A DNA stretch of 64,000 bases from Streptomyces dioscori (GTDB lineage: Bacteria > Actinomycetota > Actinomycetes > Streptomycetales > Streptomycetaceae). The stretch spans positions 372,001 through 436,000 of the forward strand of contig NZ_KZ679042.1 of NCBI RefSeq assembly GCF_003024195.1, read 5' to 3'. A model generated the notes under the pieces. The model had not been told where the DNA came from and made no database searches. It saw nothing but the letters and a program-made list of their open reading frames with translations. Both the position numbers and the translations under genes were made by a program. Of this stretch, positions 21,535 through 52,053 are shown piece after piece (the first letter of the stretch is position 1; each line of letters starts with the position of its first letter).

Positions 21535-22347
21535 TTGCGGATCAACATTCTGGGACCAGTGTCCATCAGCATGAACGGCAAGCATCACACCATACGTGCC
21601 AACAAGGTACGGGCATTTCTCGCCCTTCTCGCGCTGGAGGCCGGCCGGGCCGTATCGAATGAGGACCTGGCGGAAGAACTGTGGTCCGGGCATCTGGTGG
21701 GCAACACCCGAAATGCCTTACAGGCGCATGCGACCCGGCTGCGCAAAGTGATCGTCGGCTCCGCCGAGCAGCGCCAGGGCGCCACCGTCCTGCGGGCCGT
21801 GCACAACGGCTACCTTCTCGAAGTGCCGCCCGAGTGCGTCGACAGCAACAGGTTTCTCGGCCTGGCCGCGCGAGGGGCCGCCGAGCTGCCGGTCCGCCCG
21901 GAACGCTCGCTTGAGCTCCTGCAGCAGGCCCTCGGGCTCTGGCAGGGACCCGCGCTGCTCGACGCCGGTGACGGACTGCGGGCCCGCGGCGCGGCCGCCC
22001 TTCTCGACGAACGCCGGCTCACGGCCTGGGAGAACCTGGTCAGCGCCTATCTGGCCGTGGGGGACGACGCGGGCGCTATCGCGGAACTTCGCCAGCTCGT
22101 CGCCCGGTACCCGCTGCGCGAGCGGTTCTGCGAACTGCTCATGCTGGCGCTGTACCGGACCGGCCGGCAGGGCGAGGCCCTGGATCTGTTCCAGTGGGCC
22201 AGAAGGCGGCTGGACGAGGAGCTGGGAGTCCGGCCGGGCGCGCTGCTCCAGCGCCGCCACACGGAGATCCTCGCCCAGGACCCGTCACTGACGCTCCCCT
22301 CCGCGGTCATCCCCGGCCGGCGGGAGCCCGCGGCCGCCAGAACCTGA
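21535..22347 (+). CDS. redD: SARP pathway activator (RedD-like), TTA-containing
   Basis: A 270-residue Streptomyces antibiotic regulatory protein: an OmpR-type winged-helix DNA-binding domain (residues about 1-95) and a bacterial transcriptional activator domain of helical repeats (about 100-250, ending RLDEELGVRPGALLQRRHTEIL). SARPs bind heptamer direct repeats at 11-bp spacing and recruit RNA polymerase. Position at the start of the cluster, next to redX, matches RedD, the activator of undecylprodigiosin genes. It starts with TTG at 21535 behind GGGGGA. Codon 62 (21718-21720) is TTA, the rare leucine codon read by the bldA tRNA, so translation should be tied to development. Confidence 0.92.
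   Translation: MRINILGPVSISMNGKHHTIRANKVRAFLALLALEAGRAVSNEDLAEELWSGHLVGNTRNALQAHATRLRKVIVGSAEQRQGATVLRAVHNGYLLEVPPECVDSNRFLGLAARGAAELPVRPERSLELLQQALGLWQGPALLDAGDGLRARGAAALLDERRLTAWENLVSAYLAVGDDAGAIAELRQLVARYPLRERFCELLMLALYRTGRQGEALDLFQWARRRLDEELGVRPGALLQRRHTEILAQDPSLTLPSAVIPGRREPAAART
21718..21720 (+). promoter_or_regulatory. In-frame TTA (bldA) codon in redD
   Basis: The leucine of the stretch RNALQAH is encoded by TTA. In Streptomyces the only tRNA reading UUA is the bldA product, which accumulates late. By eye, no other cluster gene has an in-frame TTA: all other TTA strings are split across codons, mostly as xxT-TAC. Confidence 0.93.
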
Positions 22348-28250: not shown

Positions 28251-29537
28251 TCAGATCGTGCGTACGGCATGGGCTCCTATCCGGCGTGGTGACCGCGGGA
28301 AATCTGTGAGAGGGCGCCCCAATCTGCTCACGAAGAAGGTCCGGCCGGGCAGTCCCAGCCGGTCCTGCAGCTCCTTTCGTACGTCGTCGTGCTGCAGGAC
28401 GACACTGACGGGGTGCAGCGCGAGTCCCGCCTCCGTGGCCCGCAGCCAGTACTCGGCCAGCCGGGCTCCGCCGCGGACGGTGGCCTCGACACCGGGGGAC
28501 GTGTCGGTGAGACCCATGGCGACGACGACCGGCGTCGGCCGTACGACGCGGGCGAGTTGGCGGGCGAGCACCCGGTGGTAGCCCGCGTGGCGGAGCACGC
28601 TCATCGTGGTGGGAGCCAGCGCGAGGCGCAGGGCGTGGCGCCGGGGCGCCGACAGCGGCCCGAAGAGCTGGCTGAGAGGGAAGCCGTCGCCGCGCGCCCG
28701 GGCCTCGGCCTCGTCGCGGCGCACGAACGAGTACGTCTCGCGCCAGGCCTGCCGGTGGCTGAAGTCGCGTCCTCCGTGGCGGGCCACGAGGCCGGCGAAG
28801 GCCGCGCGCTCACTGTCGGCCACGAGATGCCGGACGGTGACCTCCGCGCCCTCCGCGACACCGGTCGACGGGGCGGACAGGGCGTCCAGGACGGCTGGTT
28901 CGACCGCGTCGGGGCGGTAGGGCGCGCGGTTGGTCCGCCGGGCCAGGGCGGTGCGGCGGAGTTCGGCGAGCGAACCGGCCGGCTCGTCCGTGCGGCGCAG
29001 CCGGACCGCGCACAGGGGCGACCACGACACCGGCCAGGTGCCCCCGAGAGGGCGACCGGTGTCGTACGCCCCGCCCGTCCGTCCGCCGGTGGGCGGTTCG
29101 ACGAAGCGGATACGGTCCGTCGACCAGCCCTGGAGGGCCAGGGAGCGCAACAGGACCTGGAGGTACGCGCCACAGCTGGCCAGCATCTCGACGGCGTGCG
29201 CGGGCAGGGAGGTGAGTTCGCGCTCCCGGTCGAGGGCCAGGATCACGTACTCGTCCGTGTCACGTCCCTCGGTCCCCCGTACCCCAGAGGTGCTGTCGGA
29301 GGCTTCGGGGCCGTCGGCGGGAGCCTCGTCGACGAGCCGTTCCACCGCCCGGCGCGCGCCACGGCCGGTGGGCCAGGCGACCCCCCAGGGCTGGCAGTTG
29401 TGCGACGACGGGCCGAGCGCGGCGATGTCGGCCGCTTCGCGCAGAGCGTGTTCGAAGGACGCCCGGCGTTCCGCGGAGGGCGGCCGGGGTGTCGAGGCGG
29501 GCGAGCTGGTCACGGGGTCCGTTCTCCTCACTGCCAC
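28251..29537 (-). CDS. redV: RedV-like nitroreductase-family oxidoreductase
   Basis: A protein of about 428 residues related to nitroreductases. The FMN-contact start APSSHNCQPW-type motif is present as ALGPSSHNCQPW, with ARRTNRAPYRPDAV and GLTDTSPGVEATVRGGARLAEYWLRATEAGLALHPVS further on. RedV and its Serratia counterpart PigM are implicated in oxidising HBM (bipyrrole methanol) to the aldehyde HBC; I rely on recalled pathway knowledge for that. Start is uncertain: GTG at 29537 gives the full length, while GTG at 29513 has a better-placed GGAG. It is last in the leftward redR-S-T-U-V operon. Confidence 0.82.
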   Translation of the reverse strand: MAVRRTDPVTSSPASTPRPPSAERRASFEHALREAADIAALGPSSHNCQPWGVAWPTGRGARRAVERLVDEAPADGPEASDSTSGVRGTEGRDTDEYVILALDRERELTSLPAHAVEMLASCGAYLQVLLRSLALQGWSTDRIRFVEPPTGGRTGGAYDTGRPLGGTWPVSWSPLCAVRLRRTDEPAGSLAELRRTALARRTNRAPYRPDAVEPAVLDALSAPSTGVAEGAEVTVRHLVADSERAAFAGLVARHGGRDFSHRQAWRETYSFVRRDEAEARARGDGFPLSQLFGPLSAPRRHALRLALAPTTMSVLRHAGYHRVLARQLARVVRPTPVVVAMGLTDTSPGVEATVRGGARLAEYWLRATEAGLALHPVSVVLQHDDVRKELQDRLGLPGRTFFVSRLGRPLTDFPRSPRRIGAHAVRTI

Positions 29538-29578
29538 ACGAGTCCTTTCACTGCCGGACGAGGGTCACTGCCACACGA
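29528..29578 (-). repeat. Triplicated redU tail at the redU-redV junction
   Basis: The last five codons of redU (CTCGTGTGGCAGTGA, encoding LVWQ-stop) reappear as CTCGTCCGGCAGTGA 17 bases later and as CTCGTGTGGCAGTGA another 20 bases later, the last copy supplying the GTG region of redV. Stops are at 29565, 29548 and 29528 (lowest coordinate of each). Confidence 0.85.
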
Positions 29579-30347
29579 GTGCCAGGGCGTATCCGTCGAC
29601 TTCGCGGGCCCAGCTGTCGAAGCGGGAACCGTCGGCCTCGGGGGCGTGCCGGCGCAGTTCCGGCCCGGCCCGCCAGGCGAACCGGCCGTCGGGCCACCAC
29701 TGGGTGAGCCGCACCTCACGGCTGTCCACCCGCAGGCCGAAGCCGAAGTGTTTGAGCACCGCCTCCTTGCAGGCCCATCGCAGGGGCAGCGGCATGGCGC
29801 CCACTCCCCCGAGGCGGGGATCCGCCGCGATCTCCGGGGGATGCGTGAGCAGTTCCGCGAGCGGTGGTGGCACCTGGCGGCTGCGCTCGACGTCGATCCC
29901 GACGGCACGCGGCCCGCAGACGGCGACGGCGAAGTCCACCGAGTGGGACAGACCGACCTCCACGCGGGCGTCGACGACGGGCTTTCCGGCGCGGAGGCCG
30001 TCCAGGACGACACCTACCGTGATGTCGCGAGGGTGCACAGAGGTGCCGGCGTGCCGCCGCTGATAGGCGCATACGCTGTGCTTGATGGCCAGGCGTCCTG
30101 CCAGCCACTCCAGGCGCCTTTTGACGAGGCGCAGTTGTGCCGCCTGCTGGAGCTCGTCGTCGCTCAGGTGCCGGGCGCCGATCGTCGCGCGGTCCGTCTC
30201 GTCGCGTGCGCGCAGCCAGGCGATCGACACCACGGCGAGGGTCAGGGGGCCGCGGGCGTGAGTGACGTACAGGGGGCGCGCGGGGTCGAGCGCCATGCTG
30301 TCGTCGAGGCTGCGGGCCGCGGCACGGTCCGGCGGGGCGGTCGTCAT
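29565..30347 (-). CDS. redU: Sfp-type 4'-phosphopantetheinyl transferase (RedU-like)
   Basis: A 260-residue enzyme that transfers phosphopantetheine from CoA to the serine of carrier proteins, here RedO, RedN, RedQ and RedL. The metal and CoA motifs are present: VGIDVERSR and LRWACKEAVLKHFGFGL. Length fits the Sfp group. The ATG at 30347 lies ten bases after the redT stop; operon with redT and redV. RedU is known to modify RedO in S. coelicolor; breadth of action here is inference. Confidence 0.93.
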   Translation of the reverse strand: MTTAPPDRAAARSLDDSMALDPARPLYVTHARGPLTLAVVSIAWLRARDETDRATIGARHLSDDELQQAAQLRLVKRRLEWLAGRLAIKHSVCAYQRRHAGTSVHPRDITVGVVLDGLRAGKPVVDARVEVGLSHSVDFAVAVCGPRAVGIDVERSRQVPPPLAELLTHPPEIAADPRLGGVGAMPLPLRWACKEAVLKHFGFGLRVDSREVRLTQWWPDGRFAWRAGPELRRHAPEADGSRFDSWAREVDGYALALVWQ

Positions 30348-30357
30348 CGCCGGGCCT

Positions 30358-31248
30358 TCAGCGCTCCACGCGCGGGGGCAGCAGGAACGGGTAGGTGCGG
30401 CGTCTGATCCGGTGGTGCCAGAAGCGGTCGGCCTGCCGCAGCCGCTGGATGAGCTCCCACATCCGGGCGTCGTCCCGGTAGTAGGCGGCCACCTCCTCCA
30501 CGGTGATCGGCCGGGACAGGCGGGCGTTGGCCTGTTCGAGGAACGCCGGTACGAGTTCGTGGAGCCGTTCCTTGTACAGGTTGCCGAGGAAGTCCAGCAG
30601 GACACCGCGGGTCTCGTAGAACTTGTCGAAGATCGACTTGGTCATCGAGACCCGCACGGCGTCGCGCAGGAACCAGGGCAGCGAGCTGAAGAAGAGCCGG
30701 ACGTCCAGCCGTTCGCGGTTGCGGGCGTCCCGCATGAGAGGCGTCGTGACATCGATGTACACCAGCTCACCGCCGACATCCATCCAGTTGTTGGCCTGCG
30801 CGTCCAGACCGAGAGTGGGCTCCACGGCACGCTCGACGCGGTCGAGGAACCGGGAGAAGAAGTCCTTGATCCAGATGTCGTCCTCGGTGTGCAGCAGCCT
30901 GGAACAGAGCCGGTGCGCGGGCAGTTCGCGCTGCACGCAGTAGGCCGTGATCCGCCCCGACGGCAGCCGCGTGTGCCACAGCTCGGTGTCGGCGACGTCG
31001 AGACCGTTGTCCCCGAGCCTCCTCAGATATTCGCGCAGGCTCTCCTCGTACCGTTCGAAGCGTCCGCCGTCGGGAAACACCGGCAGCCGCTTGCACGCGA
31101 AGGCGCCGTCACCGCTCTCCAGCCGCAGCACCAGGCTGACTTCGCCGTAGCCGAGCACGTCGAGGGCACTGTCGTCCCTGGTCCTGAGCGCGGCTCGAAC
31201 CCGGTCTTCGAGCTGCGCGAGTTCGTCGTGCGGAACGGTGAAGGACAT
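30358..31248 (-). CDS. redT: RedT-like protein with divergent kinase features
   Basis: A 296-residue protein assigned to RedT by position between redU and redS. Function unknown in the family. The sequence shows features of a kinase or aminoglycoside-phosphotransferase fold: a glycine-rich start LGYGEVSLVLRL (residues 32-43), a lysine in FACKRL (Lys53), a catalytic-loop-like LDAQANNWMD (Asp149, Asn153/154) and a metal-binding-like Asp166 in VYIDVTTP. The usual HxD histidine is absent, so activity may be altered or lost. No membrane segment. Start ATG at 31248, ten bases after the redS stop. Confidence 0.75.
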   Translation of the reverse strand: MSFTVPHDELAQLEDRVRAALRTRDDSALDVLGYGEVSLVLRLESGDGAFACKRLPVFPDGGRFERYEESLREYLRRLGDNGLDVADTELWHTRLPSGRITAYCVQRELPAHRLCSRLLHTEDDIWIKDFFSRFLDRVERAVEPTLGLDAQANNWMDVGGELVYIDVTTPLMRDARNRERLDVRLFFSSLPWFLRDAVRVSMTKSIFDKFYETRGVLLDFLGNLYKERLHELVPAFLEQANARLSRPITVEEVAAYYRDDARMWELIQRLRQADRFWHHRIRRRTYPFLLPPRVER

Positions 31249-31258
31249 GGCATGACCC

Positions 31259-31702
31259 TTAGCTCTGGTTGTCCGTCCTGGCCCGCGAGGTGGCCGCGGC
31301 GGACGGGGACGGTGTGCGCCGGCGCCGCACGAGGAGGTGGATGGCCGCGGCGAAGAACGCGGCGTCGAGCACGAGGATCTGCGGCACGCTGCTGACGAGG
31401 ATGACGACCAGGCAGACCAGCATGAGCAGTTGGCCGTAGAGGGCGGCGACGACCAGATACCGGTCGAGGATCAGGACGACCCCGCTGACGACCATCGCCG
31501 CCGCGACGAACACGGTGACGCCGGTGGGGTGTTCGGCGAGCCAGTCGGTGAAGGGACCGAGGACGGCGACACCGTCGTTGCCGTCCGCGGCTCCGTCGAG
31601 GCGCTCTTCGACGGACTCGATCTCCGGGAAGAACTTGCCGATGCCGGCGATGACGTAGAGGACGCCCACTATGCGCTGGAGGATCAGGTCTCGTTTGGTC
31701 AC
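31259..31702 (-). CDS. redS: DoxX-like membrane protein (RedS position)
   Basis: A 147-residue membrane protein with four predicted helices (QRIVGVLYVIAGIGKFF; VTVFVAAAMVVSGVVLIL; LVVAALYGQLLMLVCLVVIL; LVLDAAFFAAAIHLLV) and a polar tail. The arrangement matches the DoxX/quinol-oxidase-subunit-like family. By synteny it corresponds to RedS, whose role is unknown; it may help localise the pathway at the membrane or couple it to redox carriers (speculation). GTG start at 31702. Confidence 0.65.
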   Translation of the reverse strand: MTKRDLILQRIVGVLYVIAGIGKFFPEIESVEERLDGAADGNDGVAVLGPFTDWLAEHPTGVTVFVAAAMVVSGVVLILDRYLVVAALYGQLLMLVCLVVILVSSVPQILVLDAAFFAAAIHLLVRRRRTPSPSAAATSRARTDNQS

Positions 31703-31828
31703 CCGATGGAGTCTTCCGGTGTCGTGGCCTGGCGGCCGGGGCTTTTTCGGACGAGATCCACTGCTGCCGCGATCCGGTGTCGGTGTGCACGCCGGTTCAG
31801 ACGGCCCGGTGTTCGCGTGTACGGCGGT

Positions 31829-33067
31829 TCAGGCGGCCGTGATCACCAGGACCGCGTTCTGGCCGCCGAAACCGAACGAGTTGCTCACCGCGACCTCCAC
31901 CTTCCGTTCCCGGGGCGACCCGGCGACGATGTCCAACTCGACCTCGGGGTCCTGCCGTTCGAGGTTGGCGGTCGGGGGGATGGTGCCGTTCTCGACGGTC
32001 AGCACGGTCAGCGCGGCCTCGATCGCTCCGGCTGCGCCCAGGGTGTGGCCGGTCACCCCCTTGGTGGAGGTGACCGCGGGTCCTTCACCGAGCAGCCCTC
32101 GCAGCACCTTGGCCTCCGCCGCGTCGTTGAGCGGTGTCGAGGTGCCGTGGGCGTTGACATGGTCGACCTCGTCGGGTGTGACGCCCGCTCCCGACAGGGC
32201 CGTGCGCAACGCCAGCAGAACCCCCGCGCCCTCGGGGTCGGGGGCGGTCATGTGGTACGCGTCGGCGGAGGCCCCGTACCCGGCGATCCTCGCCCGGACC
32301 GTCGCCCGGCGCGCCCGTGCGTCCGCCTCGCGTTCGAGGACGAGCATGCCGCTGCCCTCGCCGATGACGAACCCGTCGCGGTCCGCGTCGAAGGGGCGCG
32401 ATGCGGCGGACGGTGCGTCGAGTCTCCTGGACAGCGCGCCCATCTGCGCGAAGCCCGTCACCATCAGGGGGCTGACCCCGGCCTCGGCGCCGCCCGTGAC
32501 GACCACGTCGCAGCTTCCGTCGCGCAGGAGTTGCAGGGCCGTACCGATCGCCGTGGCACCTGAGGCGCAGGCCGTCGCCGTGACCAGATTCGGGCCCTTG
32601 GCGTGCAGGTCCATCGCCAGGTGCCCGGCGGCCATGTTGGGCACGAGCATGGGGATCAGCAGGGCGGAGACCGCTTCCGGTCCCTTCTCCAGCATCCGCC
32701 GGTGCTGGGTCTCCCAGGTCGCCACTCCCCCGAGGCCGCATCCGACGACGACGCCGACGCGGGCTCCGTCCCAGGTGCCGGGGTCGAGGCCGGCGTCGGC
32801 GACCGCCTCGCGTGCCGCGGTGATGCACAGCTGGCTGAAGCGGTCGTGTGCGAGGGAGCTGCGCCGGCCGACGTGCTCGCGTGCGGAGAAGCCGGGCACC
32901 GTGCAGGAGATGTCCACGGGGAGTCCGGCCAGCGAGGGGTCCGTGGCCGCCGGGGACCGGCCCGCGCACACACCCTTCCAGGTGTCGTCGGCGCCGATGC
33001 CGGCCGAGGTGACCAGGCCGACACCCGTCACGGCGACGGGTGGCAGCCTGCCGTCCCTCACACTCAT
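31829..33067 (-). CDS. redR: RedR-like FabF ketosynthase (KASII)
   Basis: A 412-residue beta-ketoacyl-ACP synthase II. It elongates the fatty chain on the RedQ carrier protein to the dodecanoyl stage used for the alkylpyrrole. The triad is intact: Cys in TATACASGATAI, His in VNAHGTSTPLND, His in KGVTGHTLGAAG. First gene of the leftward operon redR-S-T-U-V. Its ATG (33067) lies in the last of a series of 17-bp repeats that create three small overlapping upstream frames. A heptamer array of SARP type is located about 130 bases upstream. Confidence 0.93.
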   Translation of the reverse strand: MSVRDGRLPPVAVTGVGLVTSAGIGADDTWKGVCAGRSPAATDPSLAGLPVDISCTVPGFSAREHVGRRSSLAHDRFSQLCITAAREAVADAGLDPGTWDGARVGVVVGCGLGGVATWETQHRRMLEKGPEAVSALLIPMLVPNMAAGHLAMDLHAKGPNLVTATACASGATAIGTALQLLRDGSCDVVVTGGAEAGVSPLMVTGFAQMGALSRRLDAPSAASRPFDADRDGFVIGEGSGMLVLEREADARARRATVRARIAGYGASADAYHMTAPDPEGAGVLLALRTALSGAGVTPDEVDHVNAHGTSTPLNDAAEAKVLRGLLGEGPAVTSTKGVTGHTLGAAGAIEAALTVLTVENGTIPPTANLERQDPEVELDIVAGSPRERKVEVAVSNSFGFGGQNAVLVITAA

Positions 33068-33118: not shown

Positions 33119-33186
33119 GCGATGCGACCCGCCGTTCCGGCGCCCCCACGGCGCCCCCACGGCACCGCTGCGTCACTTCGCCATCG

Positions 33187-33242
33187 AGTGTGGGCTGCGG
33201 GACTGACCGCCCGCTGACCGATGACTGACCGCGCGCTGACGG
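33187..33242 (-). promoter_or_regulatory. SARP-type heptamer array and promoter for redR operon
   Basis: Read on the minus strand: CCGTCAG (33242-33236), CGGTCAG (33231-33225), CGGTCAG (33220-33214), CGGTCAG (33209-33203), exactly 11 bp apart. Ten bases after the last comes CACACT (33192-33187), a plausible -10 box. Direct heptamers at 11-bp period just upstream of -10 are the known signature of SARP binding; RedD is the obvious candidate. Confidence 0.85.
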
Positions 33243-33269
33243 TCCGGCACCCAACGCCGGAGGTGCACT

Positions 33270-33325
33270 GCGTCAGTCATCGGTCAGTGCCTCGTCAGCG
33301 ATCGGTCAGCCCCTCGGACCAGACT
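33270..33325 (+). promoter_or_regulatory. SARP-type heptamer array and promoter for redP operon
   Basis: GCGTCAG (33270-33276), CGGTCAG (33281-33287), TCGTCAG (33292-33298), CGGTCAG (33303-33309), exactly 11 bp apart; the core GTCAG is invariant. Ten bases after the last lies CAGACT (33320-33325), a -10-like hexamer, the same spacing as in the mirrored array. The two arrays together also create a perfect 16-bp inverted repeat (33214-33229 with 33272-33287). Confidence 0.85.
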
Positions 33326-33329
33326 CGGC

Positions 33330-33565: not shown

Positions 33566-34573
33566 GTGAGCCGGGCCGCCGTACTGACGGGGGTCGGCAG
33601 CTGCCTGCCGCCCCGGGCCGTCCCGAACGACGAACTGGCCGCCGGGCTGGACAGTTCCGGGGAATGGATCCGCTCACGCACCGGTATCGAGCAGCGGTAC
33701 TTCGCGGAGCAGGGCACGGCGACCTCCGATCTGGCCGTCGGGGCGGGCGAGAGAGCCCTGAAGAGCGCCGGCGTCTCCACCGTGGACACGGTGCTCGTCG
33801 CGACGACCACCCCGGACCGCCCCTGTCCCGCGACCGCCCCCGTGGTGGCCGCCCGGCTCGGGATGAGGGGAACGGCCGCCTACGACGTGTCCGCCGTCTG
33901 CACCGGATTCGTGTACGGGCTGGCGACCGCGGCGGGGCTCATCGCCGCGGGCGTCGCGGACCGTGTACTGGTGATCGGCGCGGAGACGTTCTCCACGCTG
34001 CTCGATCCCGAGGACCGGTCCACGGCCGTGATCTTCGGCGACGGCGCCGGAGCGGTCGTACTGCGCTCGGGCGATCCGGCGGAGCCCGGCGCGCTCGGCC
34101 CGTTCGACCTGGGCAGCGACGGCGACGGCGAGGACCTGATCACCGTGCCCGCGGGCGGTTCACGTCAGCGCCTGTCCGGACTGGCACCGGCGGCCGGCGA
34201 ACAGTACTTCGCCATGTCGGGCAAGGAGGTCTTCCGGCACGCGGTACTGCGGATGACCGGATCGGCCCGCACGGTTCTCGACCGGGCGGGCTGGCGGGCG
34301 CGGGACGTCGACCATCTGGTGAGCCACCAGGCGAATCTCCGGATCACCAACCATGTCGCCGACGACCTCGGGATCCCCCGCGCCCGCTGTGTCAGCAACA
34401 TCGCCGAGGTCGGCAACACCGCGGCGGCCTCCATCCCGCTCGCTCTCGACCAGGCGCACACCGAAGGTGTGTTGCGGCCGGGCGGGCGGACGCTGCTCAC
34501 CGCGTTCGGCGGCGGGCTCACCTGGGGGTCCGCGGTACTGACCTGGCCGGACCTGGACCCGGCCCGCGCGTGA
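33566..34573 (+). CDS. redP: RedP-like FabH ketosynthase (KASIII)
   Basis: A 335-residue beta-ketoacyl-ACP synthase III. It starts the dodecanoyl chain by condensing acetyl-CoA with malonyl-RedQ. Catalytic residues are intact: Cys112 in VSAVCTGFVYG, His in LVSHQANLRI and Asn in EVGNTAAASIPL. GTG start at 33566. First gene of the long rightward operon; the order redP-redQ differs from the redQ-redP order I recall for S. coelicolor. Confidence 0.93.
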   Translation: MSRAAVLTGVGSCLPPRAVPNDELAAGLDSSGEWIRSRTGIEQRYFAEQGTATSDLAVGAGERALKSAGVSTVDTVLVATTTPDRPCPATAPVVAARLGMRGTAAYDVSAVCTGFVYGLATAAGLIAAGVADRVLVIGAETFSTLLDPEDRSTAVIFGDGAGAVVLRSGDPAEPGALGPFDLGSDGDGEDLITVPAGGSRQRLSGLAPAAGEQYFAMSGKEVFRHAVLRMTGSARTVLDRAGWRARDVDHLVSHQANLRITNHVADDLGIPRARCVSNIAEVGNTAAASIPLALDQAHTEGVLRPGGRTLLTAFGGGLTWGSAVLTWPDLDPARA

Positions 34574-34676
34574 GCATCAGAACCAGCACGGAATACCAGC
34601 ACCAAGGCGAGGGCCAGGGCCAGTGGACGGCACCAACAGGAGCGCGCGTACGAGCACGAGCGAAGGAGCACACGGC

Positions 34677-34931
34677 ATGAGCGTGATGTACGGCAGGCTG
34701 GTCGATCTGCTGGTCGACCGTTTCGAGGTGGACCGTGCGGAGATCGGCCCTGACACCACGTTCGAGGACCTCGACATGGACTCGCTGTTCCTCGTCGAGC
34801 TGCTTCTCGTCATCCAGTCCGATTTCGGCGTCCATGTCAGTGACGACGCCGCGTCTCCCGGGGACACGGTCACACAGGTCGCCGACCTGATCGAGCGCCT
34901 CGCGTCCGCCGAGGTCCCCACCGGGCCGTGA
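34677..34931 (+). CDS. redQ: RedQ-like acyl carrier protein
   Basis: An 84-residue acyl carrier protein. The phosphopantetheine serine is in DLDMDSLFLVELL. It carries the growing fatty chain made by RedP and RedR, which RedJ releases for RedL. ATG at 34677 is chosen because AAGGAG (34663-34668) lies eight bases upstream; the open frame extends 18 codons further without a ribosome-binding site. Confidence 0.9.
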   Translation: MSVMYGRLVDLLVDRFEVDRAEIGPDTTFEDLDMDSLFLVELLLVIQSDFGVHVSDDAASPGDTVTQVADLIERLASAEVPTGP

Positions 34932-34992
34932 CCAGGCCGCGGCCAGAGGGCAGCCAGGCCAGAGTCCGCCGGAAACCGAGTCGAGGACGACC

Positions 34993-35253
34993 ATGAGCAC
35001 CCAGCAGTCAATCATCAACTACATCGCCGGTGTGTGGCTCGACGGTGACACCGAGGGCCTCGACGCGCAGGTCCCCCTCGCCGAGCTCAACATCATCGAC
35101 TCGGCCGGGATCTTCGACCTCGTGCACTACATGCAGGACGACTTCCGTATCACCGTCCCGCTGCAGGAGATCTCCCCGGCGAACTTCCGGACGGTCGACA
35201 CGATGGCAGCGCTGGTCGAGCGGCTGCGGCGAGAGGGGGAGACCGTCCGATGA
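34993..35253 (+). CDS. redO: RedO-like peptidyl carrier protein
   Basis: An 86-residue carrier protein. The modified serine is in LNIIDSAGIFDLV, which departs from the usual GxDS context but suits prolyl carrier proteins of this pathway. It holds L-proline (loaded by RedM) during oxidation by RedW. Stop overlaps the redN ATG (ATGA, 35250-35253). Confidence 0.9.
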   Translation: MSTQQSIINYIAGVWLDGDTEGLDAQVPLAELNIIDSAGIFDLVHYMQDDFRITVPLQEISPANFRTVDTMAALVERLRREGETVR

Positions 35254-37298
35254 CGAACGCCACCGGGGACAGGCAGGACAGCCACGACCGGCAGACCGGA
35301 CAGCACAGGCAGCACGGGCAGGAGGGGCAGGACAGCGGCAGCGTCCGGAGTCAGGTCGTCGACATCATCGCCTCACGGACGCTGTACGACGAGTCCTACC
35401 TCCTGCCCGACAGTCATTTCGAGGCGGAACTCGGTATCGACTCGGTCATCTTCGAATCGATCCTGGCCTCGGTGAAGGAGCAGTTCGCGCTGGTGGCGCC
35501 ACTGCCGTCCGGCCTCGTGACGGTCGGCGACCTCGTCCGCGCGGTCGAGCGGGCCTGTCAGGCCTCCGGTACCGCCGTTCCCCGGCCGGTGGACACCGCA
35601 CCGGGCGGCTCCGGCTCGCTCCTGGAGACGGTCGTCACCACCACCATGCGGCACACCCAGTACCAGCGCGGTCAACTGGCGCCCGGCGCCGACTTCGAGA
35701 GCGAGCTGGGCATCGACTCGGTGCTCCTGGCCTCGATCGTGGCCGACGCCGCGCGTGAGCTCGGACTTCCAGCCGGCCTGGCGGGCACCGTCACCGCGAC
35801 GTCCCTGGACGAGCTGGTGGAGGCCCTGCGCCCGTACCACGAGGACGCGCGACGGGTGGATCGGGCACCCACCGGCCCCGGGGGTGCGGCACGGATCCCG
35901 GACGAACGAATCCTGGGCGAGCGAATCCCGGACGAACGAATTACGGACGAGCGCGCCGTGGACGCACGCGCCCAGGACGAAAGCGCCGCGGTGGAACACG
36001 CCGCGGACGGGCATGCCGCGGACGATCCGGGCACGGCCTGGGACGGCCGCTCCATGAAGGACTTCGTGGAGGAGCGTGACAGCGATCTCTTCGCCAAGAC
36101 CCGCAGTTTCGGCAGGTATCTGCGGCGGCGCGAGGCCGAACGCCTCTACTGGTACGGCATGCCGTTGCACTCCCGCTGCTCGAACCGGGCCGTCATCTTC
36201 GACGAACTGGAGGGCCGCGAACGCGAGTTCCTGATGTTCGCGTCGAACAACTACCTGGGTCTGGCCAACCACCCCAAGGTGATCGAGGCGATCTGCGACG
36301 CCACGCAGCGGTACGGGGCCACCCACACCGGCTCCCGGTTCATCGGCGGGACCAACATGCTCCACAAGGAACTGGAGCGGCGCCTCGCCGCCTTCAAACA
36401 GCGGCCGGCCTGCATCGTCTATCCAGGTGGCTACGCGGCGAACATCGGCGCGATCTCCGCCCTGGTCAAGAGCTACGACACCGTCGTCGTCGACAAGCTG
36501 AACCATATGAGCATCGTCGACGGCGCCCGGCTCTCGGGCGCCACCCGCAGGATCTACCAGCACAACGACATGGCGGACCTGGAACGCATCCTGAAGCGCT
36601 GCGACGAGGCGCCCGGCGGCAAACTCGTCGTGGCCGACGGTGTGTTCAGCATGCACGGCGACATCTGCGACCTGCCCGAGATCGTCCGCCTGGCCAAGGA
36701 GCACGGCGCCAGGGTCATGATCGACGACGCGCACTCGACCGGCGTACTCGGCAGGCGCGGCTCGGGAACGGCCGAGCACTTCGGCCTCAAGGGCGAGGTG
36801 GACCTGGAACTGGGCACGATGAGCAAGACACTCGCGGGCATGGGCGGGTTCGTCGTCGGCGACGAGGAGGTCGTCGAGTACCTCCGCTTCTACTCGAATT
36901 CGTACGTCTTCGCCGCGAACATTCCCGCGGGTGTCGCCGCCGGGCTGATCGCGTCCATCGACGTCATCGAGTCGGAACCCGAGCGGATCACGAAGCTGTG
37001 GCACAACATCCGTCTGCTGCGGAGCCAGTTGGCGGACGCCGGTTTCGATCTGGAGAACACCCGCAGCGCGATCCTTCCCCTGGTCATCGGCGACGAGCGC
37101 AAGGCGATGGAGATGGGCCGCGCGGTCCGGGCGAGAGGGCTCTACTGCCAGACCGTGGTGTTCCCGGGCGTACCGCTCGGTGACGCGCGCCTGCGGGTCA
37201 GCGTCACCTCGGAACACACCCCCGAGGACCTGGAGACCGCTGCGGGCATCTTCGTCGAGGCCGGCCGCGAGGTCGGTGTCCTGCCGTCGGCGGGGTGA
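35250..37298 (+). CDS. redN: RedN-like ACP-ACP-alpha-oxoamine synthase
   Basis: A 682-residue protein. Two tandem carrier domains (Ser65 in LGIDSVIFESIL and Ser157 in LGIDSVLLASIV) precede a PLP-dependent alpha-oxoamine synthase (about 285-670) with the Schiff-base lysine Lys526 in GTMSKTLAGMGG and IDDAHSTGVLG. By analogy with RedN/PigH it condenses the pyrrolyl-beta-ketothioester with serine to give HBM. The N-terminus (DRQDSHDRQTGQHRQHGQEG) and the linker at about 210-245 (repeated IPDER/ITDER) are repetitive and Asp/Glu/Arg-rich. Confidence 0.93.
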   Translation: MTNATGDRQDSHDRQTGQHRQHGQEGQDSGSVRSQVVDIIASRTLYDESYLLPDSHFEAELGIDSVIFESILASVKEQFALVAPLPSGLVTVGDLVRAVERACQASGTAVPRPVDTAPGGSGSLLETVVTTTMRHTQYQRGQLAPGADFESELGIDSVLLASIVADAARELGLPAGLAGTVTATSLDELVEALRPYHEDARRVDRAPTGPGGAARIPDERILGERIPDERITDERAVDARAQDESAAVEHAADGHAADDPGTAWDGRSMKDFVEERDSDLFAKTRSFGRYLRRREAERLYWYGMPLHSRCSNRAVIFDELEGREREFLMFASNNYLGLANHPKVIEAICDATQRYGATHTGSRFIGGTNMLHKELERRLAAFKQRPACIVYPGGYAANIGAISALVKSYDTVVVDKLNHMSIVDGARLSGATRRIYQHNDMADLERILKRCDEAPGGKLVVADGVFSMHGDICDLPEIVRLAKEHGARVMIDDAHSTGVLGRRGSGTAEHFGLKGEVDLELGTMSKTLAGMGGFVVGDEEVVEYLRFYSNSYVFAANIPAGVAAGLIASIDVIESEPERITKLWHNIRLLRSQLADAGFDLENTRSAILPLVIGDERKAMEMGRAVRARGLYCQTVVFPGVPLGDARLRVSVTSEHTPEDLETAAGIFVEAGREVGVLPSAG

Positions 37299-37305
37299 GG
37301 CGACG

Positions 37306-39075
37306 ATGACGGACACAGCACTGACGCGGACACCGCACGGCCGAGATTCCTCAGCGACCGGCTCCGGCGTCTCGCCGAACGACTGCGACGACACCTCGCT
37401 GATCCGGTTGCCGCGGTCGCTGTCCCGGGAACAGGCGGCCCGGCCCGCGTTCGTCGGCGACAGGACTGTCACGTACGGCCAGTTGGCGGCGGACGTCACC
37501 GCCGTCGCGTCCGGTCTGCTCGGGCTCGGCACGGCGATCGGTGACCGGGTGGCGATCTGGATGGACAAGACGCCACGCTACGCCGAGGCGATTCTCGGGA
37601 CCCTGCAAGCCGGTTGCGCCTATGTCCCCCTCGACGGTGGCCAGCCGGCCGCACGCGTGGAGCACATCCTCACGGACTGCGAGCCCGTGGCCCTTTTCAC
37701 CGACCACCGGCACCTGGAACTGCTGGCGGACCGTGAACTGCCCGCCTCCGTACGGGCGATCGTGGTGGCGGACGCCACCGGCCAGGAATCGAACGGGACC
37801 ACGTCGAGGCCCATGGCCCCCGTCCGGCCGTGGGCCGACTTCGCCGCGGCGGCAGGAGACGCGACGGCTGGAGGCGCGATAGCTGGAAACGCGATGGCTG
37901 GAGGCGCGTCGGCAGGACAGAGGGCGGCTCACGTCGAGGTCCCGCCCGCCCCGGATCGCGACGACCTCGCCGCGGTCCTCTACACCTCCGGCTCGACCGG
38001 TACGCCGAAGGGGGTGCGGATCTCCTACCGGAACCTGGCGAACTTCATCCGCTGGGCCCGTACCGAACTGACCGTGGGGCCGGACGACGTGTTCGCCAAC
38101 CACGCCTCCTTCAACTTCGACCTGTCGACCTTCGACCTCTTCACCGCGCTGTCGGTGGGCGCCGGTGTCTGGATCGTCGCCGACGACCAGGCACGCGACG
38201 TCGCGGCACTGGCCGGGGGAATCCGCGAGTACGGCGTCACGGTGTGGTACTCCGTGCCCTCCGTGCTGAACCTGCTGACCCGCGCGGGCGCACTCACCCC
38301 GGAAACGGTACGCACCCTGCGGTACGTCCTCTTCGCCGGCGAGGTGTATCCGATCGGGCAGCTGCGTTCCCTGGCGGCCCTGCTGCCCGGGGAGACGGCG
38401 CTCTACAACCTGTACGGGCCCACCGAGACCAACGTCTGCACCTACCACCGGGTCCGTGCGGAGGACCTTGCCCGGGACGAACCCGTGCCGATCGGCACCC
38501 CGGTGCCCGGCGCCCGCGTGTCCGTCGTGAACGAGGACGGACGCACGCTGCACGGGTCCGACGCGTTCGGCGAGTTGATCGTGGAGGGTGACTGCGTCAC
38601 GCCCGGCTACTGGCGAGGGGCGTCACACCCGGCCGACCTGGGAGACGTTGCCGCCGGACACAGGAAAGGCCGCCACGCCACCGGTGACCTGGTGAGCTAC
38701 GAGGGAGCCGGCCTCGTCTACCGCGGGCGCCGGGACCGGATGGTCAAACTCCACGGCTATCGGGTGGAATTGGGCGAGATCGAGGCCACGGCGCTCAAGC
38801 ATCCGGCCGTCGCGTCCGCCGCCGTGGTGGTCGACACAGCGGGCACGGAGCCACGGATCGCCCTCTACTACACGCTCGGTACGGACGCCCGCAGGCCGAA
38901 CCTCATCGAGATCAAGCGGCACTGCGCACAGCACCTGCCCCGCTACATGCTGCCCCAACTGGCCGTCTGCCTCGATGAACTGCCCCACAACGCCAACGGC
39001 AAGACCGACCACCACCGCCTGGGCAGTGGGACGGCCGGGTCTGTCCGGCACTCGCAGGCCGTGCCCGGCAAATGA
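37306..39075 (+). CDS. redM: RedM-like L-prolyl-AMP ligase
   Basis: A 589-residue stand-alone adenylation enzyme. It activates L-proline and loads it on RedO. Core motifs: LYTSGSTGTPKGVRISYRN, NLYGPTETNVCTY, ATGDLVSYEGAGLVYRGRRDRMVK and the C-terminal PHNANGKTDHHRL with its lysine. A Gly-Ala repeat (ATAGGAIAGNAMAGGASAG; 15-bp unit near 37860-37915) is inserted before the P-loop. The stop overlaps the redL ATG by ATGA (39072-39075). Confidence 0.93.
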   Translation: MTDTALTRTPHGRDSSATGSGVSPNDCDDTSLIRLPRSLSREQAARPAFVGDRTVTYGQLAADVTAVASGLLGLGTAIGDRVAIWMDKTPRYAEAILGTLQAGCAYVPLDGGQPAARVEHILTDCEPVALFTDHRHLELLADRELPASVRAIVVADATGQESNGTTSRPMAPVRPWADFAAAAGDATAGGAIAGNAMAGGASAGQRAAHVEVPPAPDRDDLAAVLYTSGSTGTPKGVRISYRNLANFIRWARTELTVGPDDVFANHASFNFDLSTFDLFTALSVGAGVWIVADDQARDVAALAGGIREYGVTVWYSVPSVLNLLTRAGALTPETVRTLRYVLFAGEVYPIGQLRSLAALLPGETALYNLYGPTETNVCTYHRVRAEDLARDEPVPIGTPVPGARVSVVNEDGRTLHGSDAFGELIVEGDCVTPGYWRGASHPADLGDVAAGHRKGRHATGDLVSYEGAGLVYRGRRDRMVKLHGYRVELGEIEATALKHPAVASAAVVVDTAGTEPRIALYYTLGTDARRPNLIEIKRHCAQHLPRYMLPQLAVCLDELPHNANGKTDHHRLGSGTAGSVRHSQAVPGK

Positions 39076-42000
39076 CGGAGACGCTCATGAACCAGGATCC
39101 CCACAAGACCCCCTGGCAGCCCTGGCAGGGGAAAGAGCCGAAGACCGTCGCCGGGCTGCTGCGCCGCCATCTCGAAGACCGTCCGGACGCGCTCGCCTAC
39201 CGATTCCTCACCGGAACCGATCCGGGCCGCGCCGACGACGGCAGCGCCGGAGAGACAGGAGGGGCGGGAAAGGCAGGAGAGACGGGACAGGCGGGACAAG
39301 CAGGAAAAGCAGGACGGTCGGGCGAGGCGGAACAGGGCACGTCATGGAACTACCGGGAGCTCGACCTCCGCACCCGGGCCGTCGCCGCACTCCTGCAGCG
39401 CGAAGGCCTCACCGGCAAACCCGTCCTGCTGCTCCACCCCCCGGGGCTCGACTACATCGCTGGCTTCCTCGGCTGCCTGTACGCCGGAGCCATCGCCGTA
39501 CCCGCCTACCCGCCGGACACCCGGCGCTTCGGCCAGACCATGCCCCGTCTCGCGGCCATCGCCCGGGACTCCGGCGCCACCCACGCCCTCACGACCGGGG
39601 CCCTGTCGCGCTTCGCGGCCACGAAACGACGCGAGATGGACTCGCTCGGGCTCGCCGGCCTGCGCTGGCTGGCGCTGTCCGGGCTGGGCACGGCGGGCGC
39701 CGACGACTGGCATGAGCCGTCCGTCGGGACCGATGCGACGGCCTTCCTCCAGTACACGTCCGGCTCGACCTCGTCCCCCAAGGGCGTCATGGTCAGCAAC
39801 GGCAACCTGCTGCACAACCTCCGTTCGATCCACCGCAGGCTGGAGCACGACGCCGGATCGGGCATGGTGTCCTGGCTGCCCCCGTACCACGACATGGGTC
39901 TCATCGGCGGCATCCTCACCCCCTTGTACGGCGGGTTTCCGGCTCACCTCATGTCCGCGATGTCCTTCGTACGACAGCCGCTGCTGTGGCTGGAGACGCT
40001 GTCGCGGACCAGGGCGTCCACCAGCGTGGCCCCCAACTTCGGCTTCGAGCACTGCGTACGCCGGATCACGGACGAGCAGCGGGACAGCCTGGACCTGAGC
40101 CACTGGAGGCTGGCGCTGAACGGCGCCGAGCCGGTACGCGCCGACACGCTCGACCTGTTCACCGAACGGTTCGCGCCCTGCGGCTTCGAGCGCCGTGCCC
40201 TGCTGCCCTGCTACGGCCTCGCCGAGGCGACGCTGATGGTGACGGGGGTCGGCGCGCACGAACCCCCGCCGGTCGGCGCGTTCGCGTCCGCCGCGCTGGG
40301 CACGGGGATCGCCAGGTCCGTACCCGACAAAGCCGTACCCGAAGGACCCGAAGGACCCGAAGGACCCGCAGTAACCGAGTCGCGGGGTGAGCGGGCGGTC
40401 CGGCTGGTCGGATGCGGACCCGCCGTCGACGGGGTGGATGTCGCGATCATCGACCCCGACACCCGACGGCGGATCGGCTCCGAGGGTCACGTCGGTGAGA
40501 TCTGGATCGCGGGCGGGAGCGTGGCGCACGGCTATTGGGGCCGCCCCGAGACCAGCGAGGCCACCTTCCGGGCCCGTATCGAAGGCGAAGGACCGGCACC
40601 CTTCCTGCGCACCGGCGATCTCGGCTTCCTGAAGGGCGGCCACCTCCACGTCGTCGGCCGTATCAAGGACGTCGTCATCGTGCAGGGCCGCAACCACTAC
40701 CCGCAGGACGTCGAACTCACCGTGGAACGAGCCGACGAGACGGTCCGGGCGGGGTCGGGCGCGGCCTTCTCGGTCGAGATCGACGGCGCCGAGGGACTCG
40801 TCGTCGTGCACGAGGTCGAGAGCAGGCGCCTCGACGGGGCGCAGGCGCTCCTGGCGAAGCTGCGCACGGCGATCGCCGAGGAGCACGACGTGGCACCCCA
40901 CGCCGTCGTCCTCCTCAAGAGGTCGACGGTCCACAGGACGACCAGCGGAAAGATCCAACGGCAGGCGTGCAAGCGGGACTTCCTCGGACTCGGGCTCACC
41001 GTGGTGGCGGCCAGCGTCACGAGGGACCTGACGACACCCCTTACCGCCCCGGCCGGGGACCTCGACGGCCTGTCCACCGCCGCGCGCCGGCAGCGGGTGG
41101 TCGACGCGGTCACCGAGGTCCTGACGGGTGTCCCGGCGACGCCCGACGCGCCGGACGTCACCGGCTGGACGTTCCTCGAACTCGACCTCGACTACCCGGC
41201 GCTCCTCACCGCCGTACGCGTCCTGGAGGAGCGGCTCGGCACCAGGATCCCCGTGGGGGCGCTGCTGGTACGCCCGAGGGTCGACACCCTGATCAGCCTG
41301 TTTCTCGGTGAGGAGCCCGGGGAGCAGCCGCCCGCCAGGGAGCAGTCGGCCGAGCTGTGGGACGCGGAGGCCGTGGAGGCCTGGCTGGTCGAGGAGGTGG
41401 CGACACGCCTCGGCCTGTCCGCCGCCTCGGTCGACGTCACCAGGCCGCTGGCCTCGTTGGGCCTGGACTCGAAGCAGGCCGTGGCCATCCTCGCGGAACT
41501 CGGCGCGCGGACCGGGCGCGAGATGAGCACAGGCACCGCTTTCGAGCATCCGACCATCCGGGCCGTCGCGGCCCATGTGGGTACCGCCGAGCGTTCGGCG
41601 GGCCCGGCGGGCCCGGCGGTGACGACGGCGGTGACAACGGCGGCAACACCTCAACTCCAGGCGCTGTCAGCGCCGTTGCCGTCGGCGTCGGCGTCGCGGC
41701 AACCGTCACCACCGCAGGACACCGGGCCCGAACCCATCGCCATCATTGGCATGGGGTGCCGTTTCCCGGGCGCCCCGGACCCGGACAGCTACTGGCGGCT
41801 CCTGGTTGACGGACGCGACGCGATCACCGGGGTCCCGGCCGGCCGTTGGGCCACCGAGCAGGTGGACGCACCCGCGTTCGGCGGCTTCATCGATCGCGTG
41901 GACGAGTTCGACGCCCGCTTCTTCGGCCTGTCGGCCAGGGAAGCGGCACGGATGGACCCCCAGCAGCGGCTGCTCCTGGAGACGGCCTGGCAGACCGTGG

Positions 42001-45000
42001 AGGACGCGGGCCTCGATCCGACCGGGCTGGCGGGCAGCGCGACCGGCGTGTTCGTAGGCATCAGCAGCCATGACTACTCCGAGCTGCAGATGAGCCGCCT
42101 GGAGACGATCGACGTCCACGCGGCGACCGGCAACGCGCACTCCATCGCGGCGAACCGGCTGTCGTACACCCTCGATCTGCGCGGTCCGAGTCTCGCGGTG
42201 GACACCGCGTGCTCGTCGTCGCTGCTGGCGGTGCATCTCGCCTGCGAGAGCATGCGGCGCGGTGAGTGCGACACGGCCCTGGCCGGCGGGGTCAACCTGC
42301 TGATCTCGCCGGGCCTCTCGGTGGCGTTCGCCCAGGGCAACATGCTCTCCCCCGACGGACAGTGCCGTACGTTCGACGACGCGGCGAACGGTTACGTACG
42401 CGGTGAGGGCGTCGGCCTCGTCCTCCTCAAGCCGCTCTCCGCCGCGCTCGCCGACGGCGACCCGGTCCACGCGGTGATCCGCGGCTCGGCCACCGCCCAC
42501 GGCGGCAGGAGCAACGGCCTGACGGCGCCGAGGGGTTCGGCCCAGCGGTCCGTGATCGAACGCGCCCTGGACCAGGCAGGCCTGAGCGGTCCGGACATCG
42601 ACTACGTCGAGGCGCACGGCACCGGCACCTCACTCGGCGACCCCGTCGAATGGGAGGGCCTGGCAGCCGCCTACGGAAGTGGCCGAGCCGAGGGCGGCCC
42701 CTGCCTGGTGGGTTCGGTCAAGACCAACATCGGACACCTGGAGTCGGCCGCGGGCATCGCCGGACTCATCAAGGCGGCCCTCGTCGTACGGCACCGCCAG
42801 GTCCCGCCGACGCTCCATCTGCGGACCCCGAACCGCCGTCTCGCCTGGGACGGCGCCGGGCTCGACGTGCCGACCCGGCTCACCGGCCTGCCGGACACGG
42901 GCAGCGTACGGGCAGGTGTCAGCTCGTTCGGGTTCGGCGGGGCGAACGCACACGTGGTGCTCGAATCGGCCCCCGAGCCGGATCCGATCGACGCGGTGGC
43001 CCCGAAGCGGCCCACGCACGCCCTGTGCCTGTCGGCGCACACACCCACGGCCCTCACCGCGCTCGCCCAGCGCTGGCGCACACACCTGGCCGCCCACCCC
43101 GACGCGGAACTCGCGGACCTGTGCCACACCGCCAACACCGGCCGGGCCCGGCTCGCCTTCCGGGCGGTCGTCACCGGCGGTTCCCAGGAGGCGTTCGACA
43201 CCGCGCTCGACGTCTTGGCCCGCGGCGGACCATCGACCGCCGTGGTGCGCGGGCGGGCCCGGCCGGGCCGCGCGCCGAAGGTCGCGTTCCTCTTCAGCGG
43301 TCAGGGAACGCAGTACACGGGCATGGGCAAGGGCCTGTACGACACCCACAGCGGGTTCGCCCGGACCCTGGACGCCGCCGACCGCGTCCTGCGCCCGCAC
43401 CTCGGTGTCCCGCTGACGGAACTGCTGTTCGGGGAGGGGAGCGCCGACCGGCTGGCGAGCACCCGGTACTGCCAGGCCGCGCTGGTGGCTCTGGAGGTCG
43501 CGCTCGCCGAGCTGTGGATCTCGCTGGGTGTGCGGCCCACCGCTCTGCTCGGGCACAGCATCGGGGCGTACGGCGCCGCCTGTGTCGCCGGGGTGATGTC
43601 CCTGGAGGACGCCCTGACGCTGGCCGTGGTGCGGGGCAGGCACATGGCCGAGCAGCCGGGCGAGGGCGCGATGATCGCCTGCGCCGGGGACGCGGAGGCG
43701 ATCCGCGCCGAGGCCGCCGTCGAAGACTCCGTCGCGGTCGCCGCCGTCAACGCCCCCGGGCATCTCGTCCTGTCCGGGCCCCGTACGGAGATCGACCGGG
43801 TACGAGCGCGGCTGGAGAGCCGGTCGGTCGTCGTCAGGCCGCTGACGGTGTCGCACGCCTTCCACTCCCCGCTGATGGCGGGTGCGGCCGAGCCGCTGCG
43901 TGCCGCGGCGGACGGTGTCGCGTTCCGGCGGCCGGAGATCCCCTGGGTCTTCGACGCGACGGGCGAGCCGGTCACCGGGCCGGTCGGGGCCGAGGACTGG
44001 GCGCGGCACATGCTGGGTCCGGTGCGTTTCGCCGACGGTTTCTCCGCACTGCGTCACCTCGGCTGCGATGCCTTCGTGGAGATCGGCCCGCATCCGACCC
44101 TGCTCAACATGGCACGCACCATGACCACTTCGGACGACGAGGAGTCGGTGCTGTGGCTGCCCTCGCTGCGCCGCGCACGCGGCGGCCCCGCGGGTGACGG
44201 GGACTGGCAGACGCTTCTCCAGTCGCTCGGCCGACTGCACTGCGCGGGCGGGCCGGTGAACTGGGCCGCGCTGGACGAGGGTTCGCGCAGGCCGCGGATC
44301 CCGGTACCGCACGCGGTGCTCGAAGGGCAGCGCTACTGGTTCTCGGCGCAATCGTCGACGACGTCGGAGGGCGGTGGCGCGCAGGACGGCATCGCTGATC
44401 CCAGTCCGGCACCGCAGCCCGCCCCGGCCGCCGCCCTCGTCACTACGGCCGCGGGCACCCCGGCCGCTCCAGCGGCTCCAGCCGCTCCCGTCCTTCCGAC
44501 ACCTCCGGCCCCTCCGACCCCTCCCGCCCCTCCGGCCTCCGACGGAGACGGGATCCGCAACGAGGTGGTCGACCAGGTGGCCCGCGCCTGCGCCTTCCTG
44601 CCCGAGCAGATCCCCCTGGACGCACGCCTGGGCGCGGACCTCGGTTTCGACTCGCTGATGCGCACCGAACTCGAACGCGCCCTCGCCCGCCGCTTCCCCG
44701 AGCAGCTGGACAGGTACCGCGAGTCGGTGCCCGAGGACCCGACCGTCGGCCAGCTCGTGGCCCTGCTGGACACCGGTGACCGGACGCCACCGGTCCACGG
44801 GAACAGCACTCCCCCGCCCGCGGTCGCGGGCCCCCCGGTGCGGCAGGAGCGCGAGTTCGAGGAGTGGGCCGAGTACGCCGAACTGCAGGGCCGTCTCCGC
44901 CAGACCACGACGAGCGGCGCCAACCCGTACGGCCGGATCCACGAGGGTCACAATTCCGGCCGCGTCTCCATGGACGGCCGCCCTGTCATCAACTTCTCCT

Positions 45001-47159: not shown

Positions 47160-47179
47160 ACCCGACCGAGAGGATCCAC

Positions 47180-48088
47180 GTGCACACGATCGAGCGGCCG
47201 GCGGCAAGGGGCCCGTCGGCTCCGCGACCACTCGCTGCCGGGTGGTTCCCCGGCTTCAACCCGAGCACGGACACCGCTGGAGCCACGGCCACGGCCACGG
47301 CCACTGCTACAGCCACGGCTGCGCGTGCCGGGGGCCGCACCGCCCCGCTGCGTCTCGTCTGCCTTCCGTACGCGGGCGGCACGCCGTCCGTCCACCGGAA
47401 CTGGGCGGCACACCTCGGCGACGACGTGCACGTCGTTCCCGTACTCCTGCCCGGCCGGGGACTGCGCTCGCGGGAGACGCCGTACACCGACCTGGGCGCT
47501 CTGGTCGCGGACCTCGCCGACGCGCTGATCGAGCACGAACTCGCCCAGGACTACGCGCTGTTCGGGCACAGCATGGGAGCGCTGCTCGCCTACGAGGTGG
47601 CCCGTGAGCTGCGGGACCGCGGGCTGCCCGAGCCGGCACATCTCTTCGTGTCGGGCAGCAAGGCACCGCACCTGTACGGCGATCGCCGCGACCACCTGCT
47701 CTCCGACGCGGATCTGCGGCAGCTGGTACGCGATCTCGGAGGCCTGGGCGCCGACGACACCATCGGCAGCTCGTACCTGGAGCGGCGGCTGCCGGTGCTG
47801 CGCGCCGACCTCACTGTCTGCGAGACCTACCGCTGGACCCCGCGCCGCCCTCTGAGCTGCCCGATGACCGCCTTCTCCGCCACCGGTGACCCGATCGCGT
47901 CCGCGCACGAGATGGAGGCCTGGCGCGTCCACACCCGGGGCTCGCTCCTGCGCCACCACGTGGAGGGCGATCACTTCTTCCTCAACGGCCCGTCCAGGCC
48001 GTACCTCCTGCGCGAGATCCGTGCCGAACTCGACCGCCACCTCGCCCGCCGCCTCGACCGCCTCGACCGCCTCGACCGCCCAATGTGA
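47180..48088 (+). CDS. redJ: RedJ-like type II thioesterase
   Basis: A 302-residue alpha/beta hydrolase. In S. coelicolor RedJ hydrolyses dodecanoyl from RedQ, freeing the acid that RedL activates. Catalytic residues: Ser131 in FGHSMGALLAYE, Asp in FSATGDPIAS, His in VEGDHFFLN. GTG start at 47180 behind GAGAGG. The N-terminal 55 residues are non-conserved and include an Ala-Thr repeat (hexamer near 47280-47325); the C-terminus ends in LDR three to four times (9-bp unit near 48046-48080). Confidence 0.92.
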   Translation: MHTIERPAARGPSAPRPLAAGWFPGFNPSTDTAGATATATATATATAARAGGRTAPLRLVCLPYAGGTPSVHRNWAAHLGDDVHVVPVLLPGRGLRSRETPYTDLGALVADLADALIEHELAQDYALFGHSMGALLAYEVARELRDRGLPEPAHLFVSGSKAPHLYGDRRDHLLSDADLRQLVRDLGGLGADDTIGSSYLERRLPVLRADLTVCETYRWTPRRPLSCPMTAFSATGDPIASAHEMEAWRVHTRGSLLRHHVEGDHFFLNGPSRPYLLREIRAELDRHLARRLDRLDRLDRPM

Positions 48089-48101
48089 AGAGGGAACCCT
48101 C

Positions 48102-49226: not shown

Positions 49227-49245
49227 CGGGCCAGGAGACCTCATC

Positions 49246-51984: not shown

Positions 51985-52053
51985 CCACTCCGCCCCGTCC
52001 GTCAGCGAACAGTGCCGCTCCCGTGGAGCGGTCACCCCCAGGAAGGCAGCGAG

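Follow-up and report, generated by a model that had tools for sequence, protein, structure and literature searches.

Promoters read by SARP activators are built on direct repeats at intervals of 11 or 22 bp, the 3′ one of which lies 8 bp from the −10 element; the afs box bound by AfsR extends from −40 to −19 (PMC10936776). The closest described counterpart of the promoter analysed here is the redP-redQ gap of S. lividans, for which Krause et al. (2020) reported GTCAGSS motifs and binding by the SARP PapR2 in EMSA; overexpression of PapR2 raised redP 57-fold and redQ 492-fold, and the same paper cites an earlier in silico prediction (Iqbal 2012) (PMC7040171). A 2025 paper includes a predicted RedD site ahead of redQ in a comparison (PMC12692060).

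The locus examined here lies between redR and redP in a window of 64,000 nucleotides (the whole stretch of DNA analysed, G000:C5:372001-436000) from a 10.24-Mb Streptomyces dioscori genome. We consider it highly probable that this gap is one bidirectional promoter activated by RedD, and the binding of RedD that we predict makes it a precise RedD operator candidate with broad comparative support.

Repeat arrays of the redR/redP gap

The gap separates two operons whose extents are presumed from gene order, the red gene names likewise being those that we take the gene order to imply. The left operon (28251..33067, minus strand) comprises redR, redS, redT, redU and redV, encoding a FabF-type protein (redR), DUF6041 and DUF6206 proteins, a phosphopantetheinyl transferase and an FMN oxidoreductase-like protein (redV). 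The right operon (33566..53957, plus strand) comprises redP, redQ, redO, redN, redM, redL and the genes that follow, and its products include a FabH-type protein (redP), an ACP, the redO product, an aminotransferase (redN) and then further proteins with domain matches. Elsewhere in the window, tandem repeats with CATG lie at the start of a GntR-family gene (14102-14205).

Within 33187-33325, four GTCAG-cored heptamers per strand lie back to back, with a pitch of 11 bp at every step on both strands. The minus-strand array on the redR-redV side (33203..33242) has its heptamer 5′ ends at 33242, 33231, 33220 and 33209, and the heptamers of the plus-strand array on the redP side (33270..33309) start at 33270, 33281, 33292 and 33303; both arrays were read directly and are conserved in orthologous gaps. 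All eight heptamers contain the GTCAG core, five of them as CGGTCAG and the rest as CCGTCAG, GCGTCAG and TCGTCAG. Since the SS tail of the PapR2-type motif GTCAGSS is found in only four of the eight, the other four having T after GTCAG, the arrays are of GTCAG type and not strict GTCAGSS sites. Ten bases past the last heptamer lies a predicted −10 hexamer on each side, CACACT on the left (33187..33192, minus strand, running from 33192 down to 33187) and CAGACT on the right (33320..33325, plus strand), and because this distance is exact, so are the limits of the element. Direct reading therefore confirms, in both directions, the two four-heptamer arrays (consensus CGGTCAG, invariant GTCAG), the exact 11-bp intervals and the CA(C/G)ACT hexamer ten bases after the last heptamer that the original prediction had described.

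This arrangement is rare. In the window, GTCAGn6GTCAG has six matches, all in the redR/redP gap, against 0.14 expected, and none of 100 shuffles reached six; a fuller pattern that includes the −10, with up to one mismatch, is matched three times where 0.17 would be expected, a count that likewise no shuffle in 100 reached. Across the 10.24-Mb genome, GTCAGn6GTCAGn10NANNNT occurs in two places only, which are the two arms of the gap (backward control, 1). The bare pair without the −10 is not rare, with 39 matches to the 14 of the backward control; the diagnostic feature is therefore the combination of array and −10 spacing. The exact genome-wide matches of a three-repeat syntax are the same two arms; with up to two mismatches it has eight matches (backward control, 4), of which four are shifted or exact readings of the redR/redP gap and three belong to one other array. 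When up to three mismatches over three repeats and the −10 were allowed, the window scan gave only one other match, at 28217 (+), with a simulated background averaging 0.2 matches over 20 simulated sequences. The stretch at 28217-28254 (+) holds three GTCGG and one GTCAG at an 11-bp pitch, in the gap before redZ, and points into the 3′ end of redV. The window scans found no array sites ahead of redD, redX or redW, and thus not every red transcript is covered by an array.

Conservation in other red loci and beyond

Among the best 80 of 126 relatives found in a RedN search, 34 are red-type loci (L001-L034); L035-L080 are general aminotransferases with 37–43% identity and were excluded from the red set. 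A divergent gap between redP and either redR or redQ is kept in 26 of these 34 loci and missing from eight, and in all 26 divergent gaps GTCAG arrays flank both sides, with two to five exact copies per side. Mirrored GTCAG arrays were also present in all six further non-duplicate gaps from other genomes. Twelve of the 18 loci from this genus search were discarded as 100% identical to earlier loci over the match, among them L129, a duplicate of L017 without the gap. A second genus draw, with RedN in 17 of 363 genomes, added no new locus.

For the alignment we combined 68 arms from 34 loci, namely the 26 gaps, the window, the six further genomes and one cluster that is not a red cluster (L159). 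Aligned on the proximal GTCAG only, the arms share an A at +16 in 68 of 68 cases and a T at +20 in 67 of 68, after four arms with a degenerate proximal copy (L016 and L018) had been moved manually by 11 bp; as the loci are kin, the 68 arms are not independent trials. The −10 A and T carry 2.93 and 2.82 bits, the positions of the proximal GTCAG 1.24–2.82 bits, and spacer and flank positions at most 0.90 bits. The alignment of orthologous gaps that had been proposed as a check thus finds heptamers that persist in every divergent gap while spacers and flanks vary more, the reverse of heptamers being lost from gaps whose flanking sequence is kept.

Conserved repeats and −10 spacing across 34 loci, set within more variable spacers and flanks, also bear on the notion that the array is a chance tandem repeat without function. 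In favour of that notion, the redR/redP gap is rich in other tandem repeats, and a five-copy GTCAG array at 11 bp occurs elsewhere in the genome, at C1:124341-124389. We rejected the latter as a further target, because it lies in antisense over the 3′ end of a gene (called by a simple script) and has no correctly placed −10. Given the conservation, we find it scarcely conceivable that the redR/redP arrays arose by chance alone and serve no function.

Outside the divergent gaps, GTCAG repeats precede redO, in other gene orders, in four of four Nocardia loci and the single Actinocrinis locus. In Actinocrinis (L019) there are three copies at 11 bp; among the Nocardia loci, L025, L027 and L028 have three copies at 11 and 12 bp and L029 has two at 12 bp, and none of the four gives a full-syntax match or fits the −10 rule. 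When chosen gaps of the eight loci whose gene order differs were searched de novo for three repeats at 11 bp, L019 alone came up. L033 has only a GTCAG pair 22 bp apart and no GTCAG array was found in L017 or L034, so the red genes do not always depend on an 11-bp array site. Ten loci (L003, L004, L005, L006, L007, L009, L021, L022, L026 and L125), which form one clade on the tree, show 11+23 spacing in both arms, with no exact repeat adjoining the proximal one; this layout is not predicted by a strict adjacent-dimer model. With redQ on either side of the gap and the Nocardia repeats ahead of redO, the promoter appears to outlast gene shuffling.

A genus-wide scan extends the picture beyond the red loci. 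Of 392 genomes, 33 contain the pattern GTCAGn6GTCAGn10NANACT, at 47 places in all; the backward control has three matches. RedN is present in 19 of the 392 genomes, 11 of which have a scan match; of the remaining eight, G213, G329, G351 and G391 have the 11+23 layout, G138 and G298 another −10 and G145 degenerate proximal copies, and G367 lacks an array. Close divergent pairs occur in eleven genomes, ten of them red genomes. The eleventh, G181, has no RedN match at 1e-150, and its mirrored 3+3 GTCAG array lies at the end of contig C34 (L159) in an NRPS-containing cluster, its neighbours being a SARP with 59% identity to RedD, a RedQ-like ACP (56%) and a RedR-like synthase (76%). The company of array and RedD-like SARP in a cluster without RedN suggests that activator and site travel together, and the scan pattern can point to candidate RedD-type promoters in other clusters. 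Among nine genus loci that were fetched, L162 and L165 lie near a gene that resembles RedD less closely (40 and 42%), and six have no RedD-like gene among their script-called genes. Similar GTCAG repeats 11 and 13 bp apart match the pattern in L160, L161, L163 and L164, with no RedD-like gene called nearby; those of L160 adjoin an AAA ATPase gene.

RedD and the predicted bidirectional promoter

The SARP gene that had been noted in the cluster is indeed there: redD (21535..22347, plus strand) encodes a small SARP of 270 aa with Pfam matches to BTAD (5e-40) and Trans_reg_C (2.4e-7), and its product is predicted to bind the arrays. The protein combines an OmpR-type DNA-binding domain with BTAD, has no further Pfam domain at E values up to 1e-6, and aligns with the SARP domain of AfsR (E 6.5e-26), EmbR being similar as well. 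The AfsR DNA-contact residues R92, R94 and K95 correspond to R, R and K in the aligned RedD, which differs at three other contacts (R87 to Q, the base contact T88 to A, and S91 to T). Across RedD orthologues the recognition helix shows good conservation. A TTA codon at 21718-21720 (redD codon 62), within the recognition helix, is the sole TTA among 21 cluster genes checked, redZ of the window having none. In the aligned stretches of other loci, TTA occurs in redZ (nine loci) or redD (L001, L004 and L018), and in both in L004, so the bldA checkpoint seems to shift between regulators; in S. coelicolor the TTA codon is, we take it, in redZ.

With a RedD query of 199 aa (21748-22344), the best match is 56–96% in the genomes of all 31 red loci with GTCAG repeats. 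The three loci that lack an array at 11 or 12 bp have a best match of 44% (L017), of 51% (L034) or none (L033), and as the step from 51 to 56% is small, the association of array and RedD is a trend and not a sharp line. The RedD matches in the L014 and L018 genomes contain one TGA each, so these copies may be broken or the match may overrun the end.

The cluster also contains redZ (27133-27927), which encodes a NarL-type response regulator with a GerE domain, and a RedZ match lies inside the examined stretch in 24 of the 34 red loci, which lends some weight to the arrays being the target of RedZ, with RedD acting elsewhere. Among 13 genomes searched, however, those of L019, L025, L028 and G181 combine GTCAG repeats and a RedD-type SARP with a best RedZ match of only 37–40%, compared with 48–97% for clear RedZ orthologues (G392, G401, G407 and G409) and an ambiguous 42–44% in L027 and L029. 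Head-to-tail 11-bp repeats with such −10 spacing are, moreover, the SARP layout (PMC10936776, PMC7040171). Judged from these comparisons, the arrays appear to track RedD better than RedZ, and a RedZ target seems to us very improbable. Still less probable, in our estimation, is that the natural user is another SARP or an 11-bp direct-repeat regulator such as AfsR or PhoP. Both of these also read 11-bp direct repeats (PMC10972967), and the S. lividans gap is bound by PapR2 (PMC7040171), but the AfsR/PhoP repeat is given there as CGTT(T/C)ATCG and not CGGTCAG, and the arrays accompany RedD orthologues across genera as well as the RedD-like SARP of the RedN-less cluster. Minor cross-binding by other regulators is possible.

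Under RedD control, we propose that the protein, made from the same cluster, would bind side by side along the heptamer rows, one protomer per 11-bp turn. The start-proximal repeats would occupy the −35 position on each side, and RedD would in this way recruit RNA polymerase with the main sigma factor to a weak −10 (CAGACT or CACACT), the two hexamers probably being real −10 elements. With these hexamers placed at −12 to −7, transcription is predicted to run left into redR-redV from near 33180 (−) and right into redP and beyond from near 33332 (+), giving leaders of about 113 and 234 bases, respectively. By its position the promoter would feed both operons, in support of the earlier proposal that one regulator drives both halves of the pathway. 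Tandem repeats with units of 17 and 21 bases, at 33052-33121 and 33329-33398, occupy parts of both leaders, each unit having an ATG on the sense strand of its own gene; those on the left take in the redR start codon and resemble repeated start sites.

Matched arms and comparison with known promoters

Copy number and spacing are equal between the two arms in 32 of 34 array loci, the exceptions being L002, with an extra distal copy, and L116, with differently placed GTAAG variants. Arms come as 4/4, 3/3, 3/3 with 11+23 spacing, or 2/2 exact copies; with L116 counted as a state of its own there are five states, which a tree of 33 loci built from RedP, RedR and RedT explains with five changes. A separate test of contrasts on the tree, run with one shared label for both arms, shows just how few of them there are, with only one or two independent ones per layout. 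In L014 and L121 the arms are identical over 27 bp, and in L018 and L116 the variant repeat GTAAG occurs in both arms. We compared spacers within and between 31 of the 34 loci (L016, L018 and L116 fitted no class), with permutation p values that ignore kinship between loci. In the compact three-repeat class, spacer similarity is 0.643 within loci and 0.554 between them (p 0.0004), or p 0.028 when L014 and L121 are left out. Neither the four-repeat class (p 0.20) nor the 11+23 class (p 0.39) showed a supported excess, and for the ten bases that precede the −10 no class did (p 0.11, 0.18 and 0.38).

The mirrored promoter may be one inverted-repeat element with arms evolving in concert, a reading that we hold to be less likely than not; the matching of the arms could come from common descent, from selection acting on both through RedD or from occasional conversion of one arm by the other. 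Either arm-to-arm conversion or selection for an equal RedD response would keep the half-pathways balanced, and if concerted evolution is real, the promoter would be a natural example of selection that keeps the expression of two operons in balance. We recognised no prior report of matched arms in a partial literature search whose terms were not aimed at arms.

Among other SARP targets, the heptamer of the ActII-ORF4 and DnrI promoters is, we assume, of TCGAG type, unlike the GTCAG found here. Those promoters likewise have heptameric direct repeats, three in number (PMC10972967). The afsS promoter read by AfsR shares with the redR/redP gap its 11-bp direct repeats and a weak CAxxxT −10 (CACTGT in afsS), and in both arms, as at afsS, the −10 begins 17 bp after the proximal repeat does (PMC10936776). 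The arms read as CGGTCAGnn, 8 bp, and CAGACT or CACACT, which is the 8-bp SARP spacing. With heptameric direct repeats in 4 + 4 copies at exactly 11 bp and a −10 spaced as at afsS, the SARP geometry claimed in the original prediction holds, although afsS has two CGTT(T/C)ATCG repeats in one direction, in contrast to CGGTCAG arrays in both directions here. The S. lividans redP-redQ gap is closer, with a GTCAG core before redP and motifs for both directions (PMC7040171); redR rather than redQ stands on the left here because redQ sits behind redP, only four of the eight copies fit GTCAGSS, and the binding reported there is that of PapR2 and not of RedD. The predicted RedD site is supported by its geometry, the cluster SARP and conservation, but the motifs of Krause et al. 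(2020) mean that the promoter is not new in kind. What is new is the breadth of its conservation, the gene swap behind it, the matched arms in nearly all array loci, and a module of RedD-like SARP and array that occurs where RedN is absent.
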